A stretch of 37,116 bases of DNA from a virus: IMG/VR virus record IMGVR_UViG_3300036719_001055, positions 1-37,116 of that record; one strand, written 5' to 3'. Position 1 is the stretch's first letter. Each line of letters starts with the position of its first letter. Made by a program: the position numbers and the translations under genes. The notes below the pieces were generated by a model. That model saw only the letters and a list, made by a program, of their open reading frames with translations, had not been told where the DNA came from and did not search any database. This document shows, piece by piece, positions 17,490-36,156 of the stretch.

Positions 17490-19300
17490 TACAGGCCTCC
17501 AAGCTCGCTGTAGTTCACCATCAGGTAGCCGTTGGCGTGTCGCTTGACCAGGTCAGGGCGCACGCGCTCCACCTCTTGTGCAATCACACCGCGTTGCGGC
17601 ATTCCCATCATCGTGTAGTCGTAAATGCCCACGCCGATCGCGTGCGTGCCCACCCGCTTGATGCCTGACTTCAGGCGCCGGTCGGAGAACATGAACGCGG
17701 CCGAGCCGAGCTGCGCACCGGCGCCAAGCAGATTGCCGAACCCAGCCTGCTGGGCGTTGTAGGCGCCCAGAGCGGAGTCGTAACCCATCTGCGTGGCGCC
17801 CAGGATGTTGGGCGTCTCTGAACGCTGCGCGGCCGCGAACGACGGCATGTTGGGCATGTTGACCTGCTGGCCCGACAGCAGCGCGTTCATCTCGTTCAGA
17901 GACATGCCGCGACGCTGCATCTGCTCGGCGATCGCCTGCTGGCGCAGACGGTTGCGCGAGTCGGCGAACTGCTGGTTGAGTCCGAACTGCTGCGCGGCAG
18001 CCTGGTTCTGCGCCTGCATGCGGGCGATGTCGAGCGCGGACGCCTGGCCCAGGGCCTGGTTGCCGAACTGACGCGCCTGCAGGTCCTGGTTGAACGCCTG
18101 ACCGGCCGCCTGATTGGCGAGGTTGGCCTGGCCCATCATCTGGTTGTAGGCCTGGTTCTGCGCTTGGTTGCCGAAGTTGAACGCGCCCAGCGTCTGGCCA
18201 TAGGCCTGATTGATCGCTTGGTTGTTCAGGTTGGCGTTGGTGACGTTCTGCTGGAACTGCTGACCCAGCGCCTGGTTGCCGGCCTGCTGGGCCTGCATCG
18301 CCTGGTTGAACGCCTGCCCCGTGGCCTGGTTGGCGAACTGGTTTGCAGATAACCCCTGGTTGAACGCCTGGTTCGCGGCCTGGTTGAAGAAGTTGCCGCC
18401 AGTGACGTCCTCGTTGAACGCCTGCTGCCGCGCACCCATCTGCATGCCGAACAGTCGCTGCGCCTCGGCGCCCGACTGGTCCAGCGCGTTGAAGCGCTCA
18501 GCGGCCTGGCGCTGGTTCAGCTCGTCCAGCGCGCGCTTGTAGCCTTCGCTGCCCAAGTCGAAGCCCTGGTTGGCCAGGCGCGTCTCGAGCTGCTGGCGCT
18601 GGTAGTCGTGCACCGGCTGCATGCGCGTCATCAGCTGCGTGGCCACCTGATCGCGGAAGCCGCCGTCGATCTGCGGCAGCATCGGGTTGTCGCCGGTGGC
18701 CAGCGAGCGCTGCAGAGACTCGGTGCCGGTGCCGCGAGTCAGGTCACCCGTCATGCCGTTGAAGCCGGTGTTCAGCGGTTGCTGGCTCACGCCGTAATTC
18801 AAGCCGCCGGTCATTGGCGACATGCCCATCTGCGGGCCGGCAAAGTTGAAGCCGCTCACCACGTTGTTGGCGCGCGAGTCAACACCCGTCTGCAGGCCGC
18901 GGGCATAGTCGCCCACGTTCGTTTGCAAGTTGCCAACCGGGTTGGCCTCGGCCATCTGCGGCAGGTTGGCGTAGTCGAACGGCCGCTGATACTCGCTGGC
19001 CACGCGGTCCATGAAGTTGCCGGCCAGCTGCGAGCGGTCGTTCTGCAGACCGATCTGAGCATTCAGCGCAGACTGGAGCGCGGGCGCCAGGGTGTTGTTC
19101 TGCGTCCAGGACGTGACCTGCTGACCCGTGGCCGGGTCAATCTGCGAACTCGTCTGCCAGGACTGCGAACCGAACGGCGTGTTGATCGTCGGCCGGTTGG
19201 CAAAATTCTGGATGTTGGTCAGCTCTTTAGAAGCTGCCGCTTGCGTGTTAGCCGCACCGATGTAATCAGGTGGTGGAGGTGCTGATCCCTTGCCGCCCAT
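17489..19300 (-). CDS. Asn/Gln-repeat virion protein with C-terminal peptidase S74 chaperone domain
   Basis: ATG 19300 has AAGGAG seven bases upstream and begins MGGKGSAPPPPDYIGAAN, giving 603 residues. The middle (about 300-470) is a long run of short Asn/Gln/Ala repeats such as NQAANQAFNQ and NQATGQAFNQ. The last 65 residues carry the intramolecular chaperone signature of peptidase S74: SDRRLKSGIKRVGTH, then GVIAQEVERVRPD and a final GYLMVNYSELGGL. In fibres and spikes this domain folds the trimer and then cuts itself off, at the Ser of the SDRRLK motif. Here it ends a protein placed with the ejection-type proteins. Whether it is a tail needle, fibre or internal protein is open. Confidence 0.75.
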   Translation of the reverse strand: MGGKGSAPPPPDYIGAANTQAAASKELTNIQNFANRPTINTPFGSQSWQTSSQIDPATGQQVTSWTQNNTLAPALQSALNAQIGLQNDRSQLAGNFMDRVASEYQRPFDYANLPQMAEANPVGNLQTNVGDYARGLQTGVDSRANNVVSGFNFAGPQMGMSPMTGGLNYGVSQQPLNTGFNGMTGDLTRGTGTESLQRSLATGDNPMLPQIDGGFRDQVATQLMTRMQPVHDYQRQQLETRLANQGFDLGSEGYKRALDELNQRQAAERFNALDQSGAEAQRLFGMQMGARQQAFNEDVTGGNFFNQAANQAFNQGLSANQFANQATGQAFNQAMQAQQAGNQALGQQFQQNVTNANLNNQAINQAYGQTLGAFNFGNQAQNQAYNQMMGQANLANQAAGQAFNQDLQARQFGNQALGQASALDIARMQAQNQAAAQQFGLNQQFADSRNRLRQQAIAEQMQRRGMSLNEMNALLSGQQVNMPNMPSFAAAQRSETPNILGATQMGYDSALGAYNAQQAGFGNLLGAGAQLGSAAFMFSDRRLKSGIKRVGTHAIGVGIYDYTMMGMPQRGVIAQEVERVRPDLVKRHANGYLMVNYSELGGL

Positions 19301-19706
19301 GAGCGTTCTCCTTGATCCAGCGGCACTCGTCGTGTCGCATTTCAAACATTACGCAGTCAACCGTCTCAGCGATCCTGCGGAATCCCAACTTGTCATTCAT
19401 CCGCAGCGCGTCGTCGAGGTTCTTGGGCGTCAAGCCGTAGATGGCCTCCATGCCGCATTTTACGAATGGATACTCGAAGGCTGCGCGCCACAGGTGCCTG
19501 TTCAGCCCATGCGGACCGTCAAACGCCACGTGAATCCAGCAGGCCGACAGCGTCCAGGCGTTAAAACCGACCGCGCAGGCGATCGTCCCGTCATCTCGCA
19601 TGGACGCAATCGTGCGCAGGTCGCTGCTCCAGGGCAGCCGCGTGCGCCGATTCATCCACTCCCAGACGACCGGGTACTCGCCAGGTTGGTCGGTCACCAG
19701 CTTCAT
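19266..19706 (-). CDS. GNAT-like N-acetyltransferase, 146 aa
   Basis: The core has the N-acyltransferase look: strand IACAVGFNAWTLSACWIHVA, a helix (HLWRAAFEYPFVKCG), strand MEAIYGLTPKNLDDALRMND and then KLGFRRIAETVDCVMFEMR, matching the Asn-helix and GF turn after the acetyl-CoA site. It ends in an unusual polar tail. It overlaps the following gene by 35 bases and the preceding one by four. Such genes occur within structural clusters of other podoviruses; substrate unknown, perhaps a virion or host protein. Confidence 0.65.
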   Translation of the reverse strand: MKLVTDQPGEYPVVWEWMNRRTRLPWSSDLRTIASMRDDGTIACAVGFNAWTLSACWIHVAFDGPHGLNRHLWRAAFEYPFVKCGMEAIYGLTPKNLDDALRMNDKLGFRRIAETVDCVMFEMRHDECRWIKENAHGRQGISTSTT

Positions 19707-20719
19707 AGGTATGCGTACTCCGTGTCGCCGAACTTCTCCTGCAACTTGCGCTCGGCGTCCTTGGCAAACGCGAGCATGTCGAGCTCGTCGATCAGCGCGT
19801 TGATGTCGACGATCTCCTCGCGCACGGGGTCTTGGTCCGACATCAGCACGCCAAAGCTGTATTGGTCGCTCTGCAAGTCCGAACCGTTGACGTCGTCGGA
19901 CGAGCCGGGATCGTCGACGTCGTCCATCAGGACGCCGAAGCTGTACAAGTCACTGGCCAAGTCCGCGCCGTTGACGTCGTCCCCAGATCCGGCGTCGTTG
20001 GCGTCGTCCATGAGGACGCCAAACGTGTAGTTGTCGCTGGCAAGGTCCGAGCCGTTGACGTCGTCAACGGCACCTAGCGTGTCGTCGTCCATGTCGGACA
20101 GCAGCACGCCAAACGTGCCGTTGCCGTCGCCCGCAACTAGGTTTTCACCACCTTCGCCCCAATAGCTGGCGTCAGTCTTGGTGCCGCCATTCGTCAAGGT
20201 TGGCGGAAGCGGACGCGGCGGCGGAGGCGGGGGCGGGTCCGGTGGCAAATCCGGCGGCAGCTCAGGCGGCGGCTCAGGCGGCGGCTCAGGCGGCGGCTCA
20301 GGCGGCGGCTCGGGAGGCGGCTCGGGAGGAGGCTCGGGAGGAGGCGGCGGGGGCGGTGGGGGCGGCGGATCTGCCGGCGGTACGGGCGGCACATCAACGT
20401 CCGAAATTACCGCGTCATCCAGCATCACAAGTGCATCCAGCTTGGGCAAAGGCCGTGGCGCGGGGGGCACCATGGGTGCAGGTGCCGGAGCTGGTGCAGG
20501 TGCCGGCGCGAGCGGCTGCGGGATCACCGGACGCGGCGCAGCGGGCGCCATGCTGACAGGAGTGTGGGCGGCGAACTTCTGACGCACGAACGGCGCCAAC
20601 GCCATTCCGTTCTGCGGGTTGTCGTAGAACCGAATGCCGGGGTTAGAAAGGCCTGGCGCGGACGTGCTGCGCAGGGCCTCAATGAGTGCGCTCGTCGGCG
20701 CTGCAGGTGCTGTTGCCAT
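19703..20719 (-). CDS. Proline-rich protein with acidic 28-residue repeats, 338 aa
   Basis: ATG 20719 overlaps the previous stop (ATGA). After a helical start and an Ala/Pro linker comes a long run of PPPE units coded by 12-base repeats, then three near-identical acidic units of 28-30 residues with the pattern [ST]FGVLMDD-DD-DDVNGSDLASDxY plus a fourth degenerate SFGVLMSDQDP, and finally a helix (ALIDELDMLAFAKDAERKLQ). The DVNGSD core resembles calcium-binding loops of EF-hand/dockerin type, which is inference. It lies between the tail nozzle protein and the GNAT gene, so a virion role is likely. Family not recognised. Confidence 0.7.
   Translation of the reverse strand: MATAPAAPTSALIEALRSTSAPGLSNPGIRFYDNPQNGMALAPFVRQKFAAHTPVSMAPAAPRPVIPQPLAPAPAPAPAPAPMVPPAPRPLPKLDALVMLDDAVISDVDVPPVPPADPPPPPPPPPPPEPPPEPPPEPPPEPPPEPPPEPPPELPPDLPPDPPPPPPPRPLPPTLTNGGTKTDASYWGEGGENLVAGDGNGTFGVLLSDMDDDTLGAVDDVNGSDLASDNYTFGVLMDDANDAGSGDDVNGADLASDLYSFGVLMDDVDDPGSSDDVNGSDLQSDQYSFGVLMSDQDPVREEIVDINALIDELDMLAFAKDAERKLQEKFGDTEYAYL
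19841..20124 (-). repeat. Tandem repeats (84, 84, 90 bases) coding acidic FGVL units
   Basis: Units begin at about 19841, 19925, 20009 and 20099 on the plus strand, each opening with a CATCAG-like start followed by (G/C)ACGCC(A/G)AA. They encode the acidic repeats of the proline-rich protein. The copies differ mainly at third codon positions, so the protein pattern is kept. Confidence 0.85.
20252..20346 (-). repeat. 12-base tandem repeat coding Pro-Pro-Pro-Glu
   Basis: GGCGGCTCAGGC on the plus strand is repeated about seven times with small drift (GGAGGCTCGGGA). On the coding strand this gives PPPE units, a stiff extended linker. Confidence 0.9.
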
Positions 20720-22335
20720 CACATCACTCCACCGATCTCAGTCATCACATGCGCAGCCGTGAACACGGTCTGCGGCAGGCCGCGCACCTTCATGCACAGC
20801 GAACCGTAGTAGCCCAGGCCGGTGGTGCCGGCCCAACCTTGGTAGGTGTTCTGCCCTGCCCATGTGGCCACGTTCCACACCGCTGCATCCCACAGGCCCG
20901 TGTCGTCGCCGGTGTAGAACGGCGAGCCGCCGATTGGCGTGAGCTGGAACTGCGTGTTGATCTGCACCTTGATTGAAGGCGCCGACAGCGCGATGAAGAT
21001 GGGACGCACCATGCCAAACTTCTTGTTCTGCGCGGGCGTGCCGAAGTGCGTGAACGCGCCCTGCATCTCGCCTTCAACGTAGTTGCCGCCGGCGCCGACA
21101 GAGTCGACAGCATCACGGTCGCCGTATAAGCCCTTGCAGGTCAGGCCGTCGTCGGTGCCGAAGTAGAGCTCGCCATCGATCACGGTCGCGCACCGCATTG
21201 GCATGCCCTCAAAGTCACACCAGGCGCCCGTGGTGACGTTCATCGCAAATTGGCGATACGTGCCGCCATCGTTAGGCAGCTTGATCACCAGCACCTCGGA
21301 CGACGGCACCACGAACACGTTGAAGAACTTCTCGTTGCGCAGCTTGCGCACGAGCGGTGCGAACACCGACTGGATCTTGGACGCTGGGCCGCCGGCCTGA
21401 ACGTCCTGCGAATACTGGCCAGTGATGAGGCGCGACATCGGCACTAGGCCGAGCTCGCTGACGATCATCACGTCGCCGCCGAACGGCGTGAAATATGTTC
21501 CGTGCCGCGGAACAGGGCCCACGTACCAGACACCCTTGAGGTTGAACGTCGATGCGTTGGTAGGGTCAGTGCCCTCCCACACACCGATGTCGCCCTCAGT
21601 GCCAACCGCGACCAGGAAGTCGTCAACGCTGAAGCCGGCGTCGATTGTCCAGTTGAACAGCGCCGAGATGTAGCCGCCGTTGCGCAAGATCGAGCCCATG
21701 GGCAGCGGATCCGCGTGCCCCTGAATGTCGTTCACGTTGCGCATGTAGTACACACGCGAGTCGCCCTCAACCGTGAACCAGATGCGCCGCTTCCACACGG
21801 CAACGGTGCGCACGCTGGTCGACAGTCCCACCGTCGATGCAGTGCGGTCAACCCAGCCGCCGGTGGCGTCGTAGGTCCAGTACCCAGCACCAGGCGAGAC
21901 GGCCAGCAGGTAGGTGCCGGCGGCCGTGGAAAACTGCGTCGTCCACCACTCGTCATCGGTGCTGCCGGTGCCGCTCGGGGTCATGTCGACGGGCGCGCCG
22001 CCCGACGTGACGTCGTAAATTTTTCCATTGGTGGCCATGAACACGCGGTTGTCAGCCGGGTCCGGTGCCGTGTAGCTGAAGATCGACTCCACCGACTGCG
22101 CAACGCTGGCGACTTCCACCGCGCTCGCGTAGGCCTGCCAGCCCTTGCGCAGCTCCACGCCCTGCTGGCGCGGGATGAAGTTGGTCAACACCAGCGCATC
22201 GGTGGGCTGCATTGCGCTGATCGGGTCGCGGTAGTTCAGCCCGCCAGTAGGCGCGGGGATGACGGCGACCTGCGCTGTCTGCGCGGCGGCCGCCCTTCGC
22301 GGCGTCTTGAAGGGTTTGACCGGGATCAGCGGCAT
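20719..22335 (-). CDS. Tail nozzle / stabilisation protein (tail tubular B-like), 538 aa
   Basis: A beta-rich protein with repeated blade-like segments (NRVFMATNGKIYDVTSG, GTYLLAVSPGAGYWTYD, RRIWFTVEGDSRVYYM, ELYFGTDDGLTCKGLYGD), as in the propeller-like nozzle or P22 gp10-type stabilisation proteins of short-tailed phages. The opening PAPTGGLNYRDPISAMQPTD is typical of that family. It follows the adaptor gene by three bases. It would close the tail tube below the adaptor ring. The assignment is by pattern and order; the family's exact name is less sure. Confidence 0.78.
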   Translation of the reverse strand: MPLIPVKPFKTPRRAAAAQTAQVAVIPAPTGGLNYRDPISAMQPTDALVLTNFIPRQQGVELRKGWQAYASAVEVASVAQSVESIFSYTAPDPADNRVFMATNGKIYDVTSGGAPVDMTPSGTGSTDDEWWTTQFSTAAGTYLLAVSPGAGYWTYDATGGWVDRTASTVGLSTSVRTVAVWKRRIWFTVEGDSRVYYMRNVNDIQGHADPLPMGSILRNGGYISALFNWTIDAGFSVDDFLVAVGTEGDIGVWEGTDPTNASTFNLKGVWYVGPVPRHGTYFTPFGGDVMIVSELGLVPMSRLITGQYSQDVQAGGPASKIQSVFAPLVRKLRNEKFFNVFVVPSSEVLVIKLPNDGGTYRQFAMNVTTGAWCDFEGMPMRCATVIDGELYFGTDDGLTCKGLYGDRDAVDSVGAGGNYVEGEMQGAFTHFGTPAQNKKFGMVRPIFIALSAPSIKVQINTQFQLTPIGGSPFYTGDDTGLWDAAVWNVATWAGQNTYQGWAGTTGLGYYGSLCMKVRGLPQTVFTAAHVMTEIGGVM

Positions 22336-22338
22336 GGT

Positions 22339-23088
22339 TTACGCCCCCATGCCCGTGTCGGGCGTATTGATCAGCGGCTGGATGTACGGGAAGCGGAAGT
22401 CGCGCGCCATGGTCAACACCGGCGCGCCCTTCTCGGAATTCTTGCGGTTCTCGAACGCGATGTTGAAGTCGCGCATCGCGGCACTGCTGTCCAGGCCCTT
22501 CATCTCGAGCCACTTGACTCGTGTGTACAACGTGATGACAGTCGCATCGAGCAGCGACACGTCGCCGTTCTGCGTCATCCGGTTTTTGAACAGCGTCGGA
22601 TCGTTCTGATCGCGCACCCAGCCGGCCGAGACGTAGAACACGTTCATCGTCTGCGGCGAGTTGGGCGGCGCCAGCACGTAGATCTTGTTGTCGCGGACCT
22701 GCCAGTAGAACGACAGCGTCGGCAGCGTCGTGCGGATCAGCAGCTGCTGCCACATCTGCGCCGACACCGGGCCCAGCGAAGGGAACTGCGTCGTCGCGTT
22801 CCAGTTGGTTTGGTCGATCCAGCGGTACAGGTCATCCGGCAGGGCAAAGCCCTTTTCCTTCTGACCGTTGGTGTCCGACTGGATGGGGATCTGGTAGTTC
22901 TTGACTAGCTCCTGCCACTCGAACATCGACAGCAGCTCGTTGCCGGCCATGTTGGCCGCCTGAACCATCTGCTGGACCGCGGGGTCCTCCGAGCCGGCAG
23001 GATCTGCAGGGACGGGGTAGGCCACCATCCCGGCCACGTTTTGCACGATGGCCGAGAGGGTCGATTCGTTGACGATCTGGAAGGCCAT
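22339..23088 (-). CDS. Head-tail adaptor (tail tubular A / gp4-like), 249 aa
   Basis: ATG 23088 is preceded by GGAGG at a spacing of six. The protein is helical at both ends and has a central part rich in aromatic residues (FALPDDLYRWIDQTNW, then FYWQVRDNKIYVLAPP), with a pattern familiar from podovirus tail adaptor proteins that form the ring under the portal. It lies immediately before the nozzle protein in the transcript, the usual order. No catalytic motifs are seen. Confidence 0.75.
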   Translation of the reverse strand: MAFQIVNESTLSAIVQNVAGMVAYPVPADPAGSEDPAVQQMVQAANMAGNELLSMFEWQELVKNYQIPIQSDTNGQKEKGFALPDDLYRWIDQTNWNATTQFPSLGPVSAQMWQQLLIRTTLPTLSFYWQVRDNKIYVLAPPNSPQTMNVFYVSAGWVRDQNDPTLFKNRMTQNGDVSLLDATVITLYTRVKWLEMKGLDSSAAMRDFNIAFENRKNSEKGAPVLTMARDFRFPYIQPLINTPDTGMGA

Positions 23089-23102
23089 CCCCGTCCTCCG
23101 GT

Positions 23103-23708
23103 TTACTCAGCGTCGGCCGTGGCTGCGACCTGTCGCTTGGGCTTGATCTGTGCCTTGAGCGCCTCCAGCTGAGCCTGCATGTCCTCAATCACCTGGTCAC
23201 GCTTCTGCAGCTCCTCGTTCATTTTTTCGATCGGGGCATTGTTGGCCGCGACCTCCATAAACGCCTTGGCGCGGGTCTTGTCCTGCTGGAAGGACATGAA
23301 CTTCTGCCCGAGGTTGTCGGGCGCGTCGGCGAGCTGCTCGATGGTGACGATCTTGAAAAACTTGTACTCCTCAGCCTTCGACGGCGTGATGCCAGGCAGC
23401 GCCGTCAACGGCGTGCCAGTGACGGCCTCAGCCTGGCCCGCCTTCCACTTGTTGTACCGATCGGAAAAACGCTGGATGTCCAGCGCCGTGATCGGCTTGT
23501 CGATGACGCTGCTCTTGTCACCGGGCGTGTGGATGCGGATGTAGTCCACCTCGTCGTAAATCGCGCGCCCTGCATCCTTGCTCTTGGCGTGGTGCATCAC
23601 GGGCTTGCGATAAAACTCGATGTACAGCTTCGAGTCCATCGCGTAGCGGGACTCGTTGGGCTGCGGAAGTGGGATGTCGTCAAATACAGTGGGTGTCGTG
23701 GGTTGCAT
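23103..23708 (-). CDS. Conserved phage structural-region protein with helix-hairpin-helix-like segment, 201 aa
   Basis: The middle contains LPGITPSKAEEYKFFKIVTI followed by EQLADAPD, which looks like a helix-hairpin-helix element of the kind that touches DNA, and the C-terminus is a coiled coil (MNEELQKRDQVIEDMQAQLE) ending in a basic stretch KPKRQ. The N-terminal half is beta-rich (SKLYIEFYRKPVM). Genes of this type stand beside the coat protein in several phages; role unknown, possibly a capsid-internal or completion protein. Confidence 0.68.
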   Translation of the reverse strand: MQPTTPTVFDDIPLPQPNESRYAMDSKLYIEFYRKPVMHHAKSKDAGRAIYDEVDYIRIHTPGDKSSVIDKPITALDIQRFSDRYNKWKAGQAEAVTGTPLTALPGITPSKAEEYKFFKIVTIEQLADAPDNLGQKFMSFQQDKTRAKAFMEVAANNAPIEKMNEELQKRDQVIEDMQAQLEALKAQIKPKRQVAATADAE

Positions 23709-23731
23709 GGTTTTTTCTTTCTAGTGGTGGA

Positions 23732-24184
23732 TTAAGCGCCGGGACCGTCGCCAGTCTCGACCTTGAGGTCAGTCGTCGTACCAGACGCACCGATGCGCTG
23801 GCCGCTGATGCTGGCCTCGTCGTTGCCAGTCGGGTTGATGCCTTCGCACACAGCGCCGAGGCCCTGCGATGCGTTGGTATCGAGCACCGTCTTGGCGTTG
23901 GCGCTCACAGCAGCGCCATATCCGATGGTGTAGAACGTGAACTCAGCCACGGCCGAGTCATCATTGCCTGCGCTCGTGGCGTAGGCGCGGACGACAACGG
24001 TCTGACCCGAGTCTGCGGGCAGCGTGACCGCGCCCGAGTAGGTCGTCCAGCCGGTGCTGGCCGGAGCGGTCCCGTAGGTGTAGCGAATGGTCGCACCCGC
24101 GGTGGCACATGCCAGCGTGAAGGTGGATCCGGGATTGACCTGGCCGCCAGAAGGCGACGCGGTCGGGGTTGCGGTTGCCGGCAT
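23732..24184 (-). CDS. Ig-like domain protein, presumed capsid decoration, 150 aa
   Basis: AGGAG lies six bases before ATG 24184. Residues 8-85 form an Ig/Fn3-like sandwich of the chitobiase C-terminal type (VNPGSTFTLACATAGATIRY, then YSGAVTLPADSGQTVVVRAY and a final strand). The second half (VSANAKTVLDTNASQGLG) is Gly/Ser/Asn-rich. Its place directly after the coat protein and its Ig-like fold are what is expected of a capsid decoration or surface-adhesion protein. A terminator-like hairpin separates it from the coat gene, which would make it less abundant than the coat protein. Confidence 0.72.
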   Translation of the reverse strand: MPATATPTASPSGGQVNPGSTFTLACATAGATIRYTYGTAPASTGWTTYSGAVTLPADSGQTVVVRAYATSAGNDDSAVAEFTFYTIGYGAAVSANAKTVLDTNASQGLGAVCEGINPTGNDEASISGQRIGASGTTTDLKVETGDGPGA

Positions 24185-24202
24185 GTTGATCTCCTGAATG
24201 GC

Positions 24203-24241
24203 AAAAAACCCAAGGGGTGTGGGTCACCCCAGCCCCTTGGG
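24203..24241 (-). terminator. Terminator-like hairpin behind the capsid gene, interlocked with a second hairpin
   Basis: On the minus strand the stem CCCAAGGGG / CCCCTTGGG (9 pairs, 24241-24233 with 24217-24209) is followed by six T residues. A second perfect 11-pair stem (GTGGGTCACCC at 24254-24244 with GGGTGACCCAC at 24229-24219) occupies its loop and 5' flank, so the two cannot form as nested hairpins. In the transcript the second stem's first arm is made earlier. Partial termination or an attenuator-like switch between coat and decoration genes is suggested. Confidence 0.72.
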
Positions 24242-24268
24242 AAGGGTGACCCACGACAGGCCCACCAA

Positions 24269-25243
24269 TTAGTTCTGCATGCGGCCCTGGAACTGGGCGC
24301 CAGAGGTGGTCAGGTTGCCGGCCCAGGCGAGGATTTGCACCTCGGCGTCCTGGTTGATCGCGTAGCGGCGATTCGGCGACAGCGGGACCATGTTGCGGTC
24401 CTTGTGGGGGCGCCACTTGATGAACTTGGTGTTCAGGAAGAACGCCGTGTTCGCCGGGCAGAAGCCACCGATACCGCCGTCCAGCACCACGTCAGCGTCC
24501 ATGAACTTGATGGACGGGAAGCCGAGGTTGCCGGTTTCCGGCGACGTGAAACGCTGCTGAGCCTGCAGGCTGGCCATGTACAGAGCCCAGTAGTTCGTGT
24601 CCATGACGATCAGATCGACACGGTCAGAACCACGGGTGGTCTGGGCCCACAGGTTGTTCATGCCTGCCTGGATGTTGGCCGCCGTGGCGTTGCCGCCGGT
24701 GGCGGTGCTGAAGTCGTACAACTTCGAGCGCCAGAAGGTCCAAGTGGCACGATCGATACCGCCGTAGGTGCCGGTGGTGGGATCGCTGGGAACAGCTGCG
24801 TCGAGGCCGGTCACTTCCTTGCCACCAGAGCCGGTGCCGTTGGAGTAGATCGACTGCGACAGCTCGTTCATCATCGTGCTTTCGGCCACGTTCAGGCGGC
24901 CTTCCAGCAGGTCAATGAACTGTTCCTTGCCGCTGTTCTGCAGCATCTCGAGGCCAGACATCACCACGGGAACGGCGTACTGCTTGATCTGGAACTCAGC
25001 AGCGCTGATCACGTCCTGAGCGGCCACGGGCAGCAGGTCGTAACCCGAGTAGAAGCCGCCGTTCGCGTTCTCAGCGAAAGACAGTTCTTCAAAGATCACG
25101 TTACCGCCAGAGATCGTCTTGACGTTGCCGCGCTGGTTCAGCTTGGCCAGGATGGCGTTGTTCTTGGTGACGTTGTCCGCGATCTGACGCGAACGGTTTT
25201 GAATCGTCGTTGCGACGATGTCTGAGACATTTGGGAATGCCAT
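24269..25243 (-). CDS. Major capsid protein, 324 aa
   Basis: GAGGAG lies six bases before ATG 25243, a strong site. Length, composition and order (scaffold, coat, decoration, adaptor) fit an HK97-fold coat protein. The N-terminal arm is helical (SDIVATTIQNRSRQIADNV), an E-loop-like beta segment follows (GNVIFEELSFAENANGG), then a spine-type helix with Met-rich part (GLEMLQNSGKEQFIDLLEGR) and a beta-rich axial domain (VDLIVMDTNYWALYMASL, FPSIKFMDADVVLDGG). No delta/prohead protease is present; assembly instead uses the separate scaffold gene. It is read from a leader of 187 bases. Confidence 0.85.
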   Translation of the reverse strand: MAFPNVSDIVATTIQNRSRQIADNVTKNNAILAKLNQRGNVKTISGGNVIFEELSFAENANGGFYSGYDLLPVAAQDVISAAEFQIKQYAVPVVMSGLEMLQNSGKEQFIDLLEGRLNVAESTMMNELSQSIYSNGTGSGGKEVTGLDAAVPSDPTTGTYGGIDRATWTFWRSKLYDFSTATGGNATAANIQAGMNNLWAQTTRGSDRVDLIVMDTNYWALYMASLQAQQRFTSPETGNLGFPSIKFMDADVVLDGGIGGFCPANTAFFLNTKFIKWRPHKDRNMVPLSPNRRYAINQDAEVQILAWAGNLTTSGAQFQGRMQN

Positions 25244-25430
25244 GATTAACTCCTCATCTGAGTTGGGTTGTTACGGGCTTTCGCCCACCATTTCAGATGC
25301 GCCGACGCGAACCGATCTCAGTCCGTCTATGTCGTGGGTGGGACGCTTGGCGTCTCCCAGGAGCTGCGGTGGCTGGGGTGCTTGGGCACACCAAGGGAAG
25401 GTTGCCCCTCCCTGTGGTGTGAATTATCCA
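25244..25430 (-). promoter_or_regulatory. Structured leader of the major capsid gene
   Basis: This 187-base gap holds no gene. On the minus strand it contains three hairpins: CACACCA-AGGGA type stem at about 25421-25387, GACGC/GCGTC around 25354-25342 with a three-base loop, and GGGC-GAAA-GCCC (a GNRA tetraloop) at 25286-25275. A GATAAT near 25431-25426 could be a -10 box, with no good -35. An ACCCACGAC motif is at 25339-25331. The leader may stabilise the coat mRNA or carry a late promoter. Confidence 0.45.
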
Positions 25431-26567
25431 TCACCGTGCGCTTTGCATAATGGCCGCCTCAATGGCCGACCGAACGTCAGTGCTGGGTTGCTGCAGAGCG
25501 CCCACCGGCGCCGAGCCGGAAACGCTCACCGCGGCCGACCTGGCCCGCTGCGCGGCCTGGGTCTGAGTCTGAGCGCTCTTGGCCTGTTTGCGCGCCCTGA
25601 GCACGCTCAGCACGCGGTCGTTCATCAGGCAGGCCTTCTTGTAGGCGTCGGACAGGCTGATGTTCTGACCGCGGCGAGCGGCCGTCTCCATGATGTCGGC
25701 CATGTCCTCGCGGACGTCGTTGCCGAACTCGGCGCGGTCCAGGAACTGCTCGACCTCCGACTGAGCCGCCTGGGCAACACGCTCCTGCTGCATCTGCTGC
25801 GCCTGCTGGAACTGCGTCAGCATCTGCTGCACCGGCGCCAGGCGCTGGTTGAGCACCTGCTCCATCGCGGCCTGCTGCGGGTCAACCACCGGCGACTGCC
25901 CAGCCAGCGCGGCGTCTAGGGCCTGGATGAACCCGTTGCCGAAACGGCCGATGCCGAACTGGTTGACGATGCCGGCGACCATCGTGGCCAGCTCAGGCGC
26001 GGTGCCCGTGCGCAGCTTGGCGGCCGTGGCCATCAGGTTGTCGATCGCCTGGATCGGGTTGGAGCCCTCGGCGCGGATGAACGCCTCGTAAGGCGCCACC
26101 GTGCGCATCACCGCGTCGTAGGCCTTGCGGGCCTCGGCCGACTCCTGCAGGGTGCGCTGCACCTCAACCTCGCGGCGCTGGATCTCCGAACGCACCGGCT
26201 CGGGCAGCTGGCCCCAGTGCTCCCTTACATCAGGACGCCAGGATGCCGGTGCACGCTCTCCAGCTTGCCGCGGTCCTGACTTGGGGCCTGGCTGGATGCC
26301 CTCCTCCTTCGCCTTGAATCGGCCGTTTTCATCTCGCTGCTGTTGAGCAAGGTCTTGGGCATCAGCGGGCTTTTCGCCCTCTGCCATCGCATCCAGGTTC
26401 TGCGCAGGTTCTGCAGATTCGGCAGCAGATTCGGCAACAGGTTCTGCAGCCGGTGCAGCCTCAGCTGGTGCCGCAGGTTCCGGTGCCGGCGCTGCGGCTT
26501 GCGCAGGCGCCTCGGTTTCTTCGATCGCTGCTTCGATCTCGTCGCGGAGTGTCGTGGGTCCGTTCAT
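25431..26567 (-). CDS. Capsid scaffolding protein, 378 aa
   Basis: The protein is helical, acidic at the front and basic at the end, as scaffolds are. An Ala/Pro/Glu-rich N-terminus (EAPAQAAAPAPEPAAPAE) gives way to RAPASWRPDVREHWGQLPEP, a segment typical of phage scaffold-type proteins, then Gln-rich coiled coil (QMLTQFQQAQQMQQERVAQ) and a basic helix at the C-terminus (LRARKQAKSAQTQTQAAQR), the part that usually binds the coat protein. It lies directly before the coat gene. It is expected to leave the procapsid before DNA packaging. Confidence 0.82.
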   Translation of the reverse strand: MNGPTTLRDEIEAAIEETEAPAQAAAPAPEPAAPAEAAPAAEPVAESAAESAEPAQNLDAMAEGEKPADAQDLAQQQRDENGRFKAKEEGIQPGPKSGPRQAGERAPASWRPDVREHWGQLPEPVRSEIQRREVEVQRTLQESAEARKAYDAVMRTVAPYEAFIRAEGSNPIQAIDNLMATAAKLRTGTAPELATMVAGIVNQFGIGRFGNGFIQALDAALAGQSPVVDPQQAAMEQVLNQRLAPVQQMLTQFQQAQQMQQERVAQAAQSEVEQFLDRAEFGNDVREDMADIMETAARRGQNISLSDAYKKACLMNDRVLSVLRARKQAKSAQTQTQAAQRARSAAVSVSGSAPVGALQQPSTDVRSAIEAAIMQSAR

Positions 26568-26570
26568 GGG

Positions 26571-26897
26571 TTATCGCCTGTTTTGGAGTTGCTGAATCGC
26601 GCGCTCTACGTCGCGTCGTGAGAACGTGCCACCGTGCTGTCGGTAGTGGTCACGCTGTTGCTGGGACTTGGCCCAGGTTTCTTTGAAGTCGTCGGCCGTG
26701 GCCAGGCCGTTGGCCTTCATGTAATCGCGGTGTTTGGTCCGCGAGCTGATGTCGGTGCCGTCAGTGGCGCGCAGGCCGTCATAGCTGCGATCGCCCCACA
26801 GCGCGCCAGAGTCGGTGCGCAGCTCGGGCTGATAGTCGGGCGTGACCTCGATCAATTCGCCCGTGATGCGGTCCTGAATCCAGCGGCGTCTAGTCAT
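26571..26897 (-). CDS. Conserved small head-region protein, 108 aa
   Basis: Basic protein opening MTRRRWIQDRITGELIEVTP with a central part (LRATDGTDISSRTKHRDYMK) and a helical, Arg/Gln-rich end (SRRDVERAIQQLQNRR). The DGTDISSRTKHRDYMK segment resembles small conserved proteins found before scaffold genes in other podoviruses; I know of no function. It ends three bases before the scaffold gene. Confidence 0.7.
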   Translation of the reverse strand: MTRRRWIQDRITGELIEVTPDYQPELRTDSGALWGDRSYDGLRATDGTDISSRTKHRDYMKANGLATADDFKETWAKSQQQRDHYRQHGGTFSRRDVERAIQQLQNRR

Positions 26898-26937
26898 GTT
26901 GTGGTATTCTCAACGATATGCAGAAAAGGAGATGGCC

Positions 26938-27141
26938 ATGGATGACGTCATCATCGTCGTAGGCACGCGCGTCGTGCGGGCGCCAAGGGAAACCTGGTCT
27001 GCCCTGCTCGAGGCTGCGTCGCTGATGGTTGACACGGGAGACATGTACCCGCACCTAGAGGGCAAGCTCGGCACCGAGCTGCTCGATGCCGCGAAACAGC
27101 TCAAGATTGACCTGGACGATCAAAACTCGTCCTCCTCCTGA
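26938..27141 (+). CDS. Small counter-oriented protein in the head gene cluster, 67 aa
   Basis: The only gene read rightward inside the leftward arm. AAGGAG at 26926-26931 lies six bases before ATG 26938. The peptide is acidic and well balanced (MDDVIIVVGTRVVRAPRETW, then LLEAASLMVDTGDMYPHLEG), with a final Asp/Asn/Ser tail, and looks like a small folded domain. The frame fills the space between two leftward genes and overlaps the end of the 462-aa gene by 22 bases. The competing minus-strand frame is Ser-rich and unconvincing. No clear promoter is seen. The arrangement is that of a moron (a gene added to the phage with its own expression). Function unknown. Confidence 0.65.
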   Translation: MDDVIIVVGTRVVRAPRETWSALLEAASLMVDTGDMYPHLEGKLGTELLDAAKQLKIDLDDQNSSSS

Positions 27142-28508
27142 TTGCGCAGCGCGGCTGCCAGAGCGGCGGTGCCGATGCCGGCAGCGCCCAGGCTGTACAG
27201 CGGATGCGTGCCACGCACCAGGCTGTCGCGAACCACGTCCTGCGGCTTTTTGCCTGTCACGCGCGCGGTGCGCTCGACCGCCTCGTTGACGTGCTGAATC
27301 ATCGGCTTGCCGGGCACTCCCTTCAGGCCCTTCCAGGCCACGTCTTGGAAGTTGGCCGGCTGCACACCCTCGGCCTTGGCCAGGTCGTGCACCACTTTCT
27401 CAAACACGCCATAGGAATCACCCGGCGGCACTAGCAGACCAGGCCGGAAACCTCCGCTCATCTGCTCGTCAATCGTGGCGCGATCGCGGTGCCCCATGAA
27501 GTTGGCCGAAAAGTCGAAACGCTTGGGTGTCTTGGCGGCCTGCAGGCCAGCGCCCTGGTTGATGACCTTGTCGTACATGGCCATGTTTCCAGACGCGAAG
27601 CGGCCGCCGATCGGGTACGGGAACTCATACGCAGCGCTCGGCTGCGGCACGCCTTTCTGACGCAGGAAGTTGCCGTAGGCTGACATCAGCAGGTTGGCAG
27701 TCGGGTCAGCGCCGCCGGTTGTTGCAGACATCGCATCGGCGAACCGCTCCTTGAACATCTCGCGGCCCTTCTTGTCGCCGAACTCCTTGATGAACTCGGC
27801 CTCGAGCTGGCCCATCGCGTACCAGTCCTTCGCGTTGGGGTCCTTGCTGCCCTCGCGAAAGGCCGTCGTCAGGCGCTCGCGCGCCTCCGGCGTGTCGAAC
27901 TCTGCGGTGTACTTGTCGATCGTGGCCTGCTTCTTGGGCAGCGCGTCGGTGACGGTGCGGCCCTGCAACGGATACTTGCTGGCGTCAGCGTAGAAACGGT
28001 CCTCGACCTTGAAATACGGGTCGTAGTTGCCCTTGTCGATGTCCTTCTGCGCGGCCTTGCGCACCTTCTCGACAGCCAGCGCCTCGGCAGAGTTTTGCTT
28101 CTGCAGAAATTCCTTGCCCGTCTTGGGGTCCTTGGCCAGCACAGGGGGCGCGGTGTCGGGATAGTTGGCCGCGATCTTGGCGCGGTCATAGCCGACGTCG
28201 TCAACCTTGCGCAGCGCCTTGACCGTCTCCTCGGTAGCCTTGCCACCCTTGCGCGCCTTGTTGGCCGCGCCGGCAACACCACCGACCACCGGCACCATGC
28301 CGGCCGCTGACAGGACCATCCCCAGCTTGTCGCCCTCGCGGCGCGCGCGCTCGAAATCGCGGCCGCTGGTGGCCGTGCCGACCACCGGCAGGAAGCCGGC
28401 GCCGATGTCGATTGCCAGGTCACCTAGGTCACCGTCCTCGGGGTTGTCCAAAGAGACGAACTTGCGCGCGCGGTCGCGCAGGGCGTTGATCAGGTCCTGT
28501 GGTTGCAT
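27120..28508 (-). CDS. Large protein of unknown function between portal and scaffold, 462 aa
   Basis: Three regions can be seen. Residues 30-90 hold two Gly/Val/Ala-rich hydrophobic segments (IGAGFLPVVGTATSGRDFER, LSAAGMVPVVGGVAGAANKA), the pattern found in front of toxin domains in polymorphic toxins and in membrane-inserting phage proteins. The middle and C-terminal parts are soluble, with segments such as DWYAMGQLEAEFIKEFGDKK and TGGADPTANLLMSAYGNFLR. The last residues give a second hydrophobic stretch (LGAAGIGTAALAAAL) and an acidic end (NQEEDEF). Order places it with head genes, so it may be packaged in the virion. I do not recognise the family, and no catalytic motif is obvious. Confidence 0.62.
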   Translation of the reverse strand: MQPQDLINALRDRARKFVSLDNPEDGDLGDLAIDIGAGFLPVVGTATSGRDFERARREGDKLGMVLSAAGMVPVVGGVAGAANKARKGGKATEETVKALRKVDDVGYDRAKIAANYPDTAPPVLAKDPKTGKEFLQKQNSAEALAVEKVRKAAQKDIDKGNYDPYFKVEDRFYADASKYPLQGRTVTDALPKKQATIDKYTAEFDTPEARERLTTAFREGSKDPNAKDWYAMGQLEAEFIKEFGDKKGREMFKERFADAMSATTGGADPTANLLMSAYGNFLRQKGVPQPSAAYEFPYPIGGRFASGNMAMYDKVINQGAGLQAAKTPKRFDFSANFMGHRDRATIDEQMSGGFRPGLLVPPGDSYGVFEKVVHDLAKAEGVQPANFQDVAWKGLKGVPGKPMIQHVNEAVERTARVTGKKPQDVVRDSLVRGTHPLYSLGAAGIGTAALAAALRNQEEDEF

Positions 28509-28515
28509 CGCGTCC

Positions 28516-30456
28516 TCACTGCATCGGTGGCACGCCGCCGTTAACCGGCGGCATCTGAGGAGCGGCCGGCGGGAGCTGGGGCTGCGGCTGCAGCATCCCC
28601 ATCTGCATCGCCTTCATGCGCGCGTCCATCTCGGTGTTGACGGCCTTGGCCTGGCGCTCCTTGGCGCCGGCCATCTTCTCGGCCACCTCAGCCTGCTGCA
28701 GCGGGCTTGGGCCCTGCTGCTGGGGCATGCCCTGCTGCTTGAGCGCGCCGATTGCCTGGTCGAGCACGCCCTCGATCTGCTGCGACACGCGGAACTTGGA
28801 CACGCTCCACTGCAGCAGCGACAGCAGCACCGGAGCCGCCTGGGGCACCGACTGCGCCATCGGCGCCACCTGGGAGATGAACGCCCCCAGGCCCTGCATG
28901 AACTGCACCGCGGCGTCGCGCTCGGCGGCCCAGTCCAGCGCGGCCATGCTGTCGGCCTCGACGTTCACCCGGTACTGGGCCATGTGCTCGTCCTTGAGCA
29001 GGGCGATCGCGTCCAACGCCATGGCCGCGTCAGGCGTGCGCTCGATGTTCGACCGCTTGATGATCGTCTCGGGCTGCCAGTGCTTGCAGATGATCTCGGC
29101 CTTGATCCGCAGCGCCTGCGAGATCCAGTCGGCGATGTAGAACTGCATCAGCTGGATCCGGGTCGATCCGAACTGCGCCTTGATCTGCTGCGCGGTGGCC
29201 GTCTCGCTGGCGCGGCTCGAGCCCCGCATCACGTCGGAGATGCCCAGCACCTCGTAGATCTGCATCACCTTGTCCTGCCGGTACTGGCGCAGGCGCTCGA
29301 TGCAGTTGACGACCATGTCGATCGGGGCCCAGTCGACCTGGCCCTTGATGCCGCCCTTCTCCGCGAACAGGGCCCAGTTGTCGACCGGGATCATCTGGTT
29401 TTCGGCGCCCTGCTGGAACATGCGTTGCACGCCGTCGGCCGTCTTGTCGTACACGCCCACGACCTTGGCCGCGCGGGTCAGCCAGGTGATGCGTGTGTTG
29501 ATCTCGTCAAGCTCGTTGAACTGGTCCTGCGCGAAGATGTAGTCGGCGCGGGGCATAAAGTTGGAGCTGGTGACGTTCGCGGCCAGGGGCTTGGGGCACG
29601 GGAAGAACCCGTCGAGCTGCAGCGGGTCGTCCTTCACGTCCAGGATGACGTCGGCGCCCTTGGCGTACCAGTAGACCTTCTTGTTCTCCTTGCACCAGAT
29701 CTCGAACACCTCAGCCTTCGACCACGGGTCGTGCTTGGGCGACTGGTCGTTGACGTCGGCCTTCTTGACCTGCACCCCCAGCGGGACAATCTTGGCGATC
29801 TCCTCGCCGAATCGGTCGACCAGCTGGTCCTTGGTCATCCAGACGCGGCGCGCGACCCACCGCACCTCGGGCCAGGTCCGCGCCGGCGAGTAGAAAAAGT
29901 CTTCCCAGTAGATGTAGTCCACCGGGGCGTCCTCGTCGACGATCCGCTCGGCCTCGGTTTCGGGCTGCAGCTCCACGCCGAACTCGTCGAACACGGCCGG
30001 CACGGTGTAGGGCTCAGTCTTGACCTCGTACCGCAGCCAGATCTGGCCCATGCCCACGATCAGCCAGTCCTCGATGCCCTGCCGCACGGCCGCGTCCCAG
30101 ACAGACACGTTCTCGTCGAAGCCGCGGTTGAGGATCCGCTGCAGCATCAACCCGGCCACGCGGGCCTGGTCGTCCTCGAAGTCCTGGAACGTGCGCGAGA
30201 CGTCTGCCTTGGGTGGCCGCGCGTACAGCATCGACAGCAGGACCTTCATCGTCGACCAGAACAGGTTGACCTTGCTCTCGTCCTTCGCATACGCATCGCG
30301 GCGGTCCAGATAACGCTGCGTGATGCGGTTGGCGTCCGTGTGGAACTTCATCAGCTCCTGCTGCGACGCCTGAATCTCAGTCGACCAACGCTGCGCCAGA
30401 CCCGCCGGGGTGCTTTGGAAATCGCTTGCGCTGGTGATCTTGGCGTTGGTTTCCAT
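28516..30456 (-). CDS. Portal protein, 646 aa
   Basis: The ATG at 30456 overlaps the terminase stop (ATGA); a GTG one codon earlier is less likely. Portal features: N-terminal helical part (LFWSTMKVLLSMLYARPPKA), a wing/stem region with Trp and acidic residues (WEDFFYSPARTWPEVRWVAR), a conserved crown-type stretch (VLGISDVMRGSSRASETATA followed by QQIKAQFGSTRIQ) typical of podovirus portals, and a long Met/Gln/Pro-rich C-terminal barrel or tail (AGAKERQAKAVNTEMDARMK). Twelve copies would form the packaging vertex. Length fits the large podovirus portals. Confidence 0.88.
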   Translation of the reverse strand: METNAKITSASDFQSTPAGLAQRWSTEIQASQQELMKFHTDANRITQRYLDRRDAYAKDESKVNLFWSTMKVLLSMLYARPPKADVSRTFQDFEDDQARVAGLMLQRILNRGFDENVSVWDAAVRQGIEDWLIVGMGQIWLRYEVKTEPYTVPAVFDEFGVELQPETEAERIVDEDAPVDYIYWEDFFYSPARTWPEVRWVARRVWMTKDQLVDRFGEEIAKIVPLGVQVKKADVNDQSPKHDPWSKAEVFEIWCKENKKVYWYAKGADVILDVKDDPLQLDGFFPCPKPLAANVTSSNFMPRADYIFAQDQFNELDEINTRITWLTRAAKVVGVYDKTADGVQRMFQQGAENQMIPVDNWALFAEKGGIKGQVDWAPIDMVVNCIERLRQYRQDKVMQIYEVLGISDVMRGSSRASETATAQQIKAQFGSTRIQLMQFYIADWISQALRIKAEIICKHWQPETIIKRSNIERTPDAAMALDAIALLKDEHMAQYRVNVEADSMAALDWAAERDAAVQFMQGLGAFISQVAPMAQSVPQAAPVLLSLLQWSVSKFRVSQQIEGVLDQAIGALKQQGMPQQQGPSPLQQAEVAEKMAGAKERQAKAVNTEMDARMKAMQMGMLQPQPQLPPAAPQMPPVNGGVPPMQ

Positions 30457-31799
30457 CACCCGATCCTTGTGCTCTGTTGGGGACCGCAGTCCCAGATGTC
30501 GTCAAGGGCGAACGCATAGTTCATGCTCTTGACCACAGGTGTCGAGATTTTAGGACCGGGGTGCGATTTCGCCATCACCGGGCGCGCAGCGAGCGCGAGA
30601 TACCGGAACGAGTCACTCGCGTGCGAGTGCTGGTCGTGCTTGGGCCGGTTGCGGTAGGTCTGGGTCTTCTCGTCCCACTCCCGCATGTAGGCGCGGAGGT
30701 GGTCGACGCCGTCGTAGGTGACCTCCTCGTCAAACCAGCACTTGGGCAGCACCAGCCGCGCGGCCTCAATGCCGTCCTGCAGCGACATCTCGGGCACCAG
30801 ACGCGGCCGGATGCCGTTGGCCAGGAACTGCTCGATGATGGATTTTCCCGTCTGCAACGACTTGGCGCGGGCATCGTGAGGCAAAAAGACGCCCTCCGCG
30901 TTGACCCGGTACGGGCGTGACTTTACCCAGTCGATGTAATGCTGGATCGGCTGGTTGTCCGCTTCGTAGAAGTCGACGATGCGATACCCGTCGCGCGTCT
31001 CCTGCCATCCCCACCAGCTGCAGCTGTCGGTGTAGCCCAGGTCGGCCACCAGGTTGACCGGGAACGCCGGGTCGACAGGGAACTTTCCGATCCGGCCCTG
31101 CTCGTAGGCGTCGCCGATCTGCTTGGCGTAGTACGCGCCCGGCACCGCGGCATCAAACGAGCACTCGTACTCGACCTCAAACGCCTCCGGCGTCATCTGC
31201 GCCTTGGCGTCGCGCAGTTCATCAGGGTGGATGATGTTGGTCTTGGACGCGGGCAGCTCCAGCAGCATGTGCGTGGCCGGGTTCAGCCGCGCCTCCTCGC
31301 GCAAATTCCAGAACAGGTTCTTGCCGCGGGGCGTGCCGGCAAAAATCGCCCACCCGCGGCGGTCTGACAGCGCCGGGCGGATCACCGTGTACCAGGCGCT
31401 GGGCCTCATGTCGCCCACCTCGTCCAGCACCGCGCCGTCGAAGTACATGCCGCGCAGGGCGTCGTAGTTGTCAGCGCCCGCGACGTAGATCGTCGACTCG
31501 CCCTTGTGGCCGTTGTTAATCGAAATCTTCAACTCAGATTCGTTGGGCGGCCTGGTCCAGAACGGCCGCGTCAGATCCTTGAGGTAGCCCCACGCCACCC
31601 GCTTGGCCTGGTCGCGCTGGGGGGCCAGGTAGGCAAACTGCGGCTTGGGCAGCGCTGTCTCGAGCGCGCCCAGGACCAGGTCGGCGCACATGGCCACCGT
31701 CTTGCCGCAGCGTCGGTGCGCCACCACCACCGTCCAGCGGCGGTCGCGGTTGTGCAGCGGCAGGAACACCTGGCGCGGTTGGTATTCCTGCAAATTCAT
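30456..31799 (-). CDS. terL: Terminase large subunit, 447 aa
   Basis: The packaging motor. The ATPase part carries Walker A AHRRCGKT at 27-34 and Walker B VLDE at 124-127 (FDGAVLDEVGD), with a coupling motif GTPRGKN soon after. The C-terminal RNase H-fold nuclease has an Asp in VADLGYTDSCS, a middle acidic cluster (VPEMSLQDGIEAAR) and a final Asp in HDQHSHASDSFRYLAL. These cut the concatemer. The length is short for a terminase but complete. It starts 16 bases after a DUF3310 gene, and stop and portal start overlap. Confidence 0.93.
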   Translation of the reverse strand: MNLQEYQPRQVFLPLHNRDRRWTVVVAHRRCGKTVAMCADLVLGALETALPKPQFAYLAPQRDQAKRVAWGYLKDLTRPFWTRPPNESELKISINNGHKGESTIYVAGADNYDALRGMYFDGAVLDEVGDMRPSAWYTVIRPALSDRRGWAIFAGTPRGKNLFWNLREEARLNPATHMLLELPASKTNIIHPDELRDAKAQMTPEAFEVEYECSFDAAVPGAYYAKQIGDAYEQGRIGKFPVDPAFPVNLVADLGYTDSCSWWGWQETRDGYRIVDFYEADNQPIQHYIDWVKSRPYRVNAEGVFLPHDARAKSLQTGKSIIEQFLANGIRPRLVPEMSLQDGIEAARLVLPKCWFDEEVTYDGVDHLRAYMREWDEKTQTYRNRPKHDQHSHASDSFRYLALAARPVMAKSHPGPKISTPVVKSMNYAFALDDIWDCGPQQSTRIG

Positions 31800-31815
31800 G
31801 TCGCGGTGTTGATGT

Positions 31816-32037
31816 TCATCCGCGCGTCAAGCGCTGGATCTCGCGGTCGATGTACCAGCGCGCCTTGCGCAGGTCCTCCACCGGGCTGTTGGATTTCAGC
31901 CCCGCGCGCCAGACGTACTTGATCGCGTTGCCCAGGCAGAAGTTCATGTGCTCGGTGATGTCGATGCACTCCACCCCGCTCGGGTGGGCGGTGTAGTGGG
32001 CGGGGTGGTTGACGGGGTCGTGTTGAGGTTTGCTCAT
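31816..32037 (-). CDS. DUF3310 protein, 73 aa
   Basis: Starts at ATG 32037. The sequence has the DUF3310 pattern: DPVNHPAHYTAHPSGVECID at the front, then FCLGNAIKYVWRAGLKS, and a Lys-Ala-Arg-Trp-Tyr-like end (DLRKARWYIDREIQ). DUF3310 is widespread in phages, often annotated as nucleotide-kinase-like, without proven function. Its place between the two terminase genes is unusual. No strong ribosome site is seen. Confidence 0.85.
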   Translation of the reverse strand: MSKPQHDPVNHPAHYTAHPSGVECIDITEHMNFCLGNAIKYVWRAGLKSNSPVEDLRKARWYIDREIQRLTRG

Positions 32038-32214
32038 AAGGTTGGTCGGGGGTAGAGGAAAAGGGGCGGGGGCCCCTGCTGCGGCCGCCCCCTCCCCCGT
32101 CGCCTCGAAGGGGGGTAGGGGGTCAGGAATCGCCCCGGCCCCGCAGTGCCCCGCGCACGGGCCCAGGATCGCGCAGGAGACGCGATCGCAGAGCAGGTCA
32201 GGCCAGGGCCCCAC
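32038..32214 (-). promoter_or_regulatory. Very G/C-skewed gap between TerS and DUF3310 with terminator-like hairpin
   Basis: No gene is supported in these 177 bases. On the minus strand a stem GGGGCGG / CCGCCCC (32091-32085 with 32069-32063, 15-base loop) is followed by TTTT, a terminator-like structure. A second perfect stem GATCGCG / CGCGATC is at 32167-32187. The plus strand has several runs of four to six G, which could form four-stranded structures. The gap stands between packaging genes and may hold a packaging or regulatory site. Confidence 0.45.
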
Positions 32215-32742
32215 CTAGCCCTCCGCGGGCCTTGTAGGCCGTTCTATCGCGTCGGCATCCGGCGCCTGGCCACTGGCCGGCACCCCCTCCGCCCCTGTGC
32301 CCGGATCAATGATCCGGTACGTGCCGTCGTTTTCCCGTTGCAGATCAAGCACTTGCGCCGGCTGGTTCTCAATTTGTGCCGCAGGTGTGCCCACTTGCCG
32401 CTGCGATAACCAGCCCAGCTCCAGCCTGATACCGCCGTCCACGTTGGCCTGGACCTGCAACGGCAGCGCCTTGTTGACCATGGCCGCGAAGATCTGCCGG
32501 TCGCCCAGGCTGCCCTGCGCGCGCTCCACCAGCCAGGCCGCCAGGCCCTTGGTGCCCTTGCTGTCGGTCACCTGGCTGGCCGCGATCTCGACGGCCTCGC
32601 GGATCGTGCGCGTGACCTTGTTGGGCACGCCCTTAGCGCGGCCCGCCGGCAGCTCGCGCCCGTCAGGCGTCCGCATGACCGGCCTCTTGACCGGCTCAAC
32701 TTTGGAGCGCGCCTCCTCAGCCTGATGTTGCGTTTCCATCAT
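32215..32742 (-). CDS. Terminase small subunit-like DNA-binding protein, 175 aa
   Basis: Starts at ATG 32742 or 32739. The N-terminal part has the pattern of small-terminase-type proteins (RAKGVPNKVTRTIREAVEI, then helical ASQVTDSKGTKGLAAWLVER) and the middle an oligomerisation-like helix (RQIFAAMVNKALPLQVQ). The C-terminus is acidic and Pro-rich. Its place two genes before the large terminase supports the call. It would recognise phage DNA for packaging. The start has no good ribosome site. The repeat-rich gap just upstream could be its binding site. Confidence 0.72.
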   Translation of the reverse strand: MMETQHQAEEARSKVEPVKRPVMRTPDGRELPAGRAKGVPNKVTRTIREAVEIAASQVTDSKGTKGLAAWLVERAQGSLGDRQIFAAMVNKALPLQVQANVDGGIRLELGWLSQRQVGTPAAQIENQPAQVLDLQRENDGTYRIIDPGTGAEGVPASGQAPDADAIERPTRPAEG

Positions 32743-35894: not shown

Positions 35895-35896
35895 GG

Positions 35897-36139
35897 CTAC
35901 ACCTCAACGGCCACCAGCTCCTCGATCTTGATGCGCACTTTCTTGTCGCGCGCAATCTTCATCAGCTCCGGCCAGTGCCGCTGCGGGATCTGGCCCCCAG
36001 TGCCCTCGGGCCGCGGCTGGCACCAGCGGCTGAGGGTGCTCTTGTCTAGGTTCAGGCGCTCAGCGACCTCGGTTTTGCCGCCCAGGCGCTGGATGACGTC
36101 ATAGGCCGGGGACAGGGTATGGATCGTGGGAATTGGCAT
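35897..36139 (-). CDS. Cro-like HTH protein, 80 aa
   Basis: ATG 36139 has GGAG five bases upstream. The core LSPAYDVIQRLGG KTEVAERLNLDKSTLSRW has the HTH pattern of Cro/CII/Cox-type phage regulators, with a Gly-rich wing or loop (RPEGTGGQIPQRHW) of the kind seen in proteins of the Cro/YdaS sort. It is divergent from the CI-like gene and the first leftward gene, so it is likely to repress the repressor promoter or to launch the lytic transcript. It ends two bases before the primase-helicase gene. Confidence 0.78.
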   Translation of the reverse strand: MPIPTIHTLSPAYDVIQRLGGKTEVAERLNLDKSTLSRWCQPRPEGTGGQIPQRHWPELMKIARDKKVRIKIEELVAVEV

Positions 36140-36156
36140 TTGCACTCCGTGATGTT

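Follow-up and report, generated by a model that had tools for sequence, protein, structure and literature searches.

The minus strand of a 37,116-nt viral genome record, IMG/VR IMGVR_UViG_3300036719_001055 (the window, that is, the whole stretch of DNA analysed), appears to encode a conserved attenuator-like RNA directly behind its major capsid protein gene, the unusual part of which is an interlocked layout. Two perfect stems, S1 (11 pairs) and S2 (9 pairs), occupy positions 24203-24254 of the minus-strand transcript in the order a-b-a'-b', with linkers UU, CUG and A, and a third stem, S0, forms a hairpin upstream of both (Table 1). The initial annotation had reported the two interlocked hairpins, which are present as claimed, and had described them as sharing the same bases; S1 and S2 in fact consist of different bases, each stem's arm sitting inside the loop of the other. 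Sharing does occur between S1 and the newly recognised S0: the bases of the S0 3' arm also make up the outer half of S1 on its 5' side, so that S0 and S1 compete for them. Judged by comparison among relatives, S1 and S2 can be taken as certain and S0 as likely conserved stems, and comparison could hardly make the structure surer. The chances that the three stems act together as an attenuator, terminating part of the transcription behind the capsid gene, seem to us about evenly balanced.

Table 1. Positions of the RNA element and its flanking genes in the window.
Feature	Position	Strand	Remarks
Major capsid protein gene, 324 aa	24269..25243	-	PHROG 9953 major head protein, E 1.5e-115
S0 5' arm (GGCCU)	24258..24262	-	7-11 nt past capsid stop codon; 24262-24258 pairs with 24252-24248
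S0 loop GUCGU	24253..24257	-	GU[C/G]GU near-invariant in clade
S0 3' arm (GGGUC)	24248..24252	-	same bases as part of S1 5' arm
S1 5' arm (GUGGGUCACCC)	24244..24254	-	24254-24244 pairs with 24229-24219
Linker UU, S1 5' arm to S2 5' arm	24242..24243	-	UU or UUU in most relatives
S2 (terminator) 5' arm (CCCAAGGGG)	24233..24241	-	24241-24233 pairs with 24217-24209
S1 3' arm (GGGUGACCCAC)	24219..24229	-	
S2 (terminator) 3' arm (CCCCUUGGG)	24209..24217	-	
U-run, six U	24203..24208	-	directly behind S2
Next gene, 150 aa, likely decoration protein, Ig-like N-terminal domain	23732..24184	-	Pfam PF13290, E 2.2e-09

The interlock of S1 and S2 is not a product of chance. Its score in the 84-nt intergenic stretch of the window, 55.5, was reached by 1 of 2000 dinucleotide shuffles, some weaker interlock being present in 1852 of the 2000, and 58 of 66 distinct relatives had no shuffle out of 100 at their own interlock score. 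The weak z-scores of single-strand folding (-0.6 to -1.8) are explained by the high GC content of the stems and by the fact that a fold counts just one of the interlocked pair. S2 is a GC-rich hairpin followed directly by a run of six U, which is the make-up of an intrinsic terminator.

Capsid searches in IMG/VR and genome contigs, together with phage records, yielded 332 loci, 330 of them with a readable 3' end. From these, the 190 loci whose capsid protein is at least 74% identical to that of the window were retained, those of lower identity being left out, and gave 96 distinct 3' UTRs; some loci represent the same contig twice, and counts were taken over distinct sequences. Interlocked stems, with a T-rich tail required behind S2, were parsed in 92 of the 96 (67 distinct cores, of which 66 were counted after exclusion of the misparsed L126). 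The 57 of these 66 sequences with at least six S1 pairs served for the counts on S1, S0, energy, folding order and masking. The stem sequences of S1 and S2 diverge strongly between groups. Of two covariance models, each built from one sequence group (12 sequences for one, 15 for the other), either one matches members of the other's group, and model R2 recovers 57/57 sequences of the main set. At 74% capsid identity, L307 displays, by eye, the same layout with very different stem sequences and is matched by the second covariance model with an E value of 0.0015.

Compensatory changes in relatives, which the initial annotation had proposed looking for, were found for both S1 and S2. In a MAFFT alignment of 57 sequences made without use of the structure (A1), 86.9% of 1012 cells of S1 and S2 were paired, with a covariation score of 0.422 that none of 500 shuffles reached and that slid controls approached to 0.178 at most. 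The number of pairs changed on both sides (11) was not unusual in A1 (332/500 shuffles); the number of cells with a change on both sides was (137 against 49). A second MAFFT alignment of 15 sequences (A3) gave 93.3% paired cells and again a score of 0.422, with slides at or below 0.117, its 22 further pair types being not unusual (337/500 shuffles). When positions were indexed by structure, pairs 1-6 were canonical in 57/57 sequences each for S1 and in 66/66 each for S2, counts that lean towards pairing since the parser picks the best register per sequence. The changes at pair 5 illustrate the pattern, with C-G 32, U-A 20, G-C 4 and A-U 1 in S1, and U-A 28, A-U 22, G-C 7, C-G 7 and U-G 2 in S2. 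An anchored test of S1 pairs 4-8, designed to avoid the bias of parsing and with ties broken at random, gave 49.6% Watson-Crick pairs (335 cells, 67 UTRs), which does not speak for pairing, ties in G-runs causing misregister; the figure was 80.0% in the 8 uniquely anchored UTRs, and 21 of 88 UTRs were not anchorable.

The evidence for S0 depends more on the alignment. In A4, which was fitted to S0, 97.8% of 271 cells were paired, 4 of 6 pairs had changed on both sides, and the score of 0.226 was reached by 0/500 shuffles, with slides of 0.098 or less. In the MAFFT alignment A3 the signal was weak, with 91.6% of cells paired, 40/500 shuffles reaching the score and a +1 slide (0.297) exceeding it (0.254).

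The S0 loop hardly departs from GU[C/G]GU in sequences whose S0 stems differ, and no pairing that would explain the loop was found in the second sequence group. Both features would suit a phage or host protein, or a small molecule, that binds the S0 loop and sets the switch. We consider this quite improbable: there is no candidate factor, little is conserved besides the loop and the UU linker, and known ligand pockets show more conservation than that.

Regarding how the stems relate to one another, the initial annotation had allowed for either one simple hairpin at a time or a pseudoknot of both. The mutually exclusive folds hold, one of them containing the terminator, as in an attenuator. The full-length pseudoknot presumably does not, as linkers of 2, 3 and 1 nt look too short for S1 and S2 to coexist at full length. 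Across the 57 relatives, the computed energy of the S1 form minus that of the S2 form averaged +1.3 kcal/mol (sd 3.7) of about -34 kcal/mol, and the minimum-free-energy structure was the S1 form in 24/57 and the S2 form in 32/57. Folding of successive transcript prefixes, computed at equilibrium and without pseudoknot energies, placed S0 above 0.5 in 44/57 sequences once the S1 5' arm was out. With the S1 3' arm out, S1 was formed in 57/57 and S0 in 1; with the S2 3' arm out, S2 was formed in 42/57; and at the end of the U-run both forms coexisted (S1 27 : S2 30). This order and the near-equal energies fit an attenuator, in which the 11-pair stem closes first and could keep the terminator from forming. 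With S0 formed, S1 is limited to 4 pairs in 35/57 sequences and to 3 pairs in 16/57, and the linker between S1 and S2 becomes 6-12 nt long (median 8), dimensions at which S0, a short S1 and S2 could plausibly form an H-type pseudoknot.

The exclusion between full S1 and S2, together with the competition from S0, leads us to propose an attenuator in which a complete S1 would mean read-through and a retained S0 termination. The element would act in cis where the capsid transcript ends, its terminator, S2 with the U-run, standing under the control of S0 and S1. S0 would fold first as the RNA emerges, and S1 could then capture the S0 3' arm, the full S1 blocking S2 so that polymerase reads on. Should S0 hold its own arm, S1 would be left with some 4 of its inner pairs and be followed by a linker of about 8 nt, S2 could fold, and the resulting pseudoknot of S0, short S1 and S2 would stop transcription. 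The outcome would be partial termination, with capsid message exceeding downstream message. We infer from these computed folds the step from RNA to polymerase, namely that polymerase does terminate here, though not on every transcript, and that S1 is what lets it read through; the element thus probably sets the frequency of termination, and so the dose of capsid protein relative to the next proteins. The attenuator-like reading of the initial annotation therefore stands as regards the terminator and the earlier stem, not as regards base sharing, and it had missed the competition of S0 with the 11-pair stem.

A ribosome at the capsid stop codon might be the input to such a switch. By covering the S0 5' arm it would let S1 zip and the terminator fail, so that the downstream genes are read; with no ribosome, S0 would form and transcription stop, as in the stop-codon attenuation of amino-acid operons. 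We masked the first 10 nt after the stop codon, which we take to be the ribosome footprint there. The S1 5' arm lies wholly beyond them in 56/57 sequences, and the S0 5' arm lies at least partly inside in 51/57 and by half or more in 38/57, the U-run following 59-73 nt after the stop codon. Masking shifted the ratio of S1 to S2 from 27 : 30 to 40 : 17 of 57, with S1 increased in 29. Conversely, S1 decreased in 7/57, the effect was smaller at 12-14 nt, S0 was wholly outside the first 10 nt in 6/57, and proximity to the stop codon could merely reflect a compact genome. Masking and spacing thus lend modest support to ribosome control, which we regard as unlikely on balance. Equally doubtful is the fuller form of this idea, a stop-codon attenuator that would allow transcription of the downstream genes only as the capsid gene is translated. 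In it, S1 and S2 would exclude each other because their loops interlock, with no arm in common, and the terminated RNA would be a pseudoknot. Another candidate, a pseudoknot promoting read-through of the stop codon, was rejected, as the distance from the stop codon to S1 varies freely and no reading frame is kept.

The same putative pseudoknot might instead act after termination, blocking 3' exonucleases so that the capsid mRNA lasts longer. In line with this, the short S1 (3-4 bp in 51/57) and the 6-12 nt linker obtained with S0 formed resemble ordinary H-type pseudoknots, and candidate H-type pseudoknots with A-rich linkers, some of them without a good U-run, occupy the same place in a sister clade (L081, from Stenotrophomonas phage BUCT555, L095/L096, L098 and L103). 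These candidates, picked by eye, are weak one by one, being reached by 3, 10, 20, 20 and 47 of 300 shuffles, and protection of the 3' end would leave unexplained the paired changes in the outer S1 pairs, which are open in the pseudoknot. It has, in our judgement, a low probability.

Termination as the role of the element also agrees with its surroundings. The capsid stop codon is located at 24271-24269 on the minus strand and the next gene starts at 24184, with its ribosome-binding site directly behind the U-run. In 66/66 relatives, a start codon with a ribosome-binding site follows 15-36 nt behind S2, a gap too short to hold a promoter, and a promoter scan of positions 18000-37116 listed no site on the minus strand. 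The 150-aa product of the next gene is likely a decoration protein, as suggested by its position and fold. In both the window and L002 this gene encodes an Ig-like domain before a core, and the corresponding gene of L001 encodes the core alone. A gene-blind scan of IMG/VR with a sequence pattern produced 44 matches, all 44 directly behind a capsid gene and all lying 11-21 nt behind the end of the capsid match. In L001 and L002, the same capsid protein and element are followed by different downstream genes, which would suit an inverted repeat acting at the DNA level, in recombination or replication, and playing no part as RNA. This is highly improbable, considering that the U-run, the gene orientation and the spacing from U-run to start codon are strand-specific, and that the stems contain 94 G-U against 16 A-C combinations, though the parser favours G-U.

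Certain members of the group lack parts of the proposed attenuator. S1 has only 4 pairs in ten of the 67 cores: in L185, L130 and L049 this reflects one mismatch within a longer stem, and in L133, L196, L207, L217 and others S1 is gone. S2 is kept with S1 partly or wholly lost in L014/L015, L066/L196/L207/L217 and L052. Besides L052, the UTRs that failed the interlock parse were L227 (about 2470-2540), which retains S1 without a U-run, and L017 (about 3972-4030) and L128, which have an ordinary hairpin, a long one in L017, in place of the element. The losses of S1 and of the U-run and the plain hairpins indicate that members can do without the complete switch. Among more distant capsid relatives (Mx8, Mx9, ppBjS10J-1 and others), an ordinary hairpin follows either the capsid gene or the gene after it, or is missing; these hairpin terminators suggest that the role common to the site behind the capsid gene is probably termination.

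Phages need far more capsid protein than decoration or tail protein, for which simple terminators or promoters are the usual explanation. The ribosome-controlled trp and his attenuators of amino-acid operons comprise a terminator, an antiterminator and an upstream guard hairpin in series behind a stop codon, the same three-part series as proposed for the element. Unlike them, the element lacks a short leader peptide carrying regulatory codons, the capsid gene would itself have to serve as the upstream frame, and S1 and S2 exclude each other through loop geometry rather than a shared arm. For the Pseudomonas phage LUZ100, an apparent strong terminator directly downstream of the capsid gene has been described as T7-like (PMC10134795). 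This T7/LUZ100 terminator resembles the element in position and probable purpose, whereas nothing in the passages on it indicates interlocked or competing stems (PMC10134795). Riboswitches that combine two hairpins, a pseudoknot and a terminator have likewise been described (PMC9788692). Compared with one of these types, the guanidine-IV riboswitch and its Gd4v variant, the element has far fewer conserved bases and sits in the 3' UTR of a phage structural gene; it has no Rfam match, in a release 15 set that may or may not include guanidine-IV.

A search of the window with 4227 Rfam 15 families at gathering scores gave only tRNA, with nothing at the element, and in 8 related loci two matches appeared at E values up to 5, neither of them on the element. 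Full-text literature searches, covering mostly journals outside subscription, listed no paper whose title or abstract describes it, and the word "capsid" is absent from the main text of the 2010 paper on candidate structured RNAs (PMC2864571). A whole phage group keeps, exactly behind its capsid gene, a compact three-stem RNA that shows strong paired substitutions and matches no Rfam family. Such an element would represent a compact natural case of stem exchange in nascent RNA during the stop decision of the polymerase, and would make the control of capsid stoichiometry directly testable.

Searches with covariance models over 81 sources located one copy of the element in the window. The further matches there were a partial one to the same stem on the opposite strand and one with model R2 at 6108-6161, at chance level (E 3.7). 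A tRNA gene is found at 5837-5909 on the minus strand of the phage. Elsewhere, the element (1346-1412) accompanies a capsid gene (79%) on L247, a contig of 3.8 kb catalogued with a Brevundimonas MAG, which hints weakly at a host.
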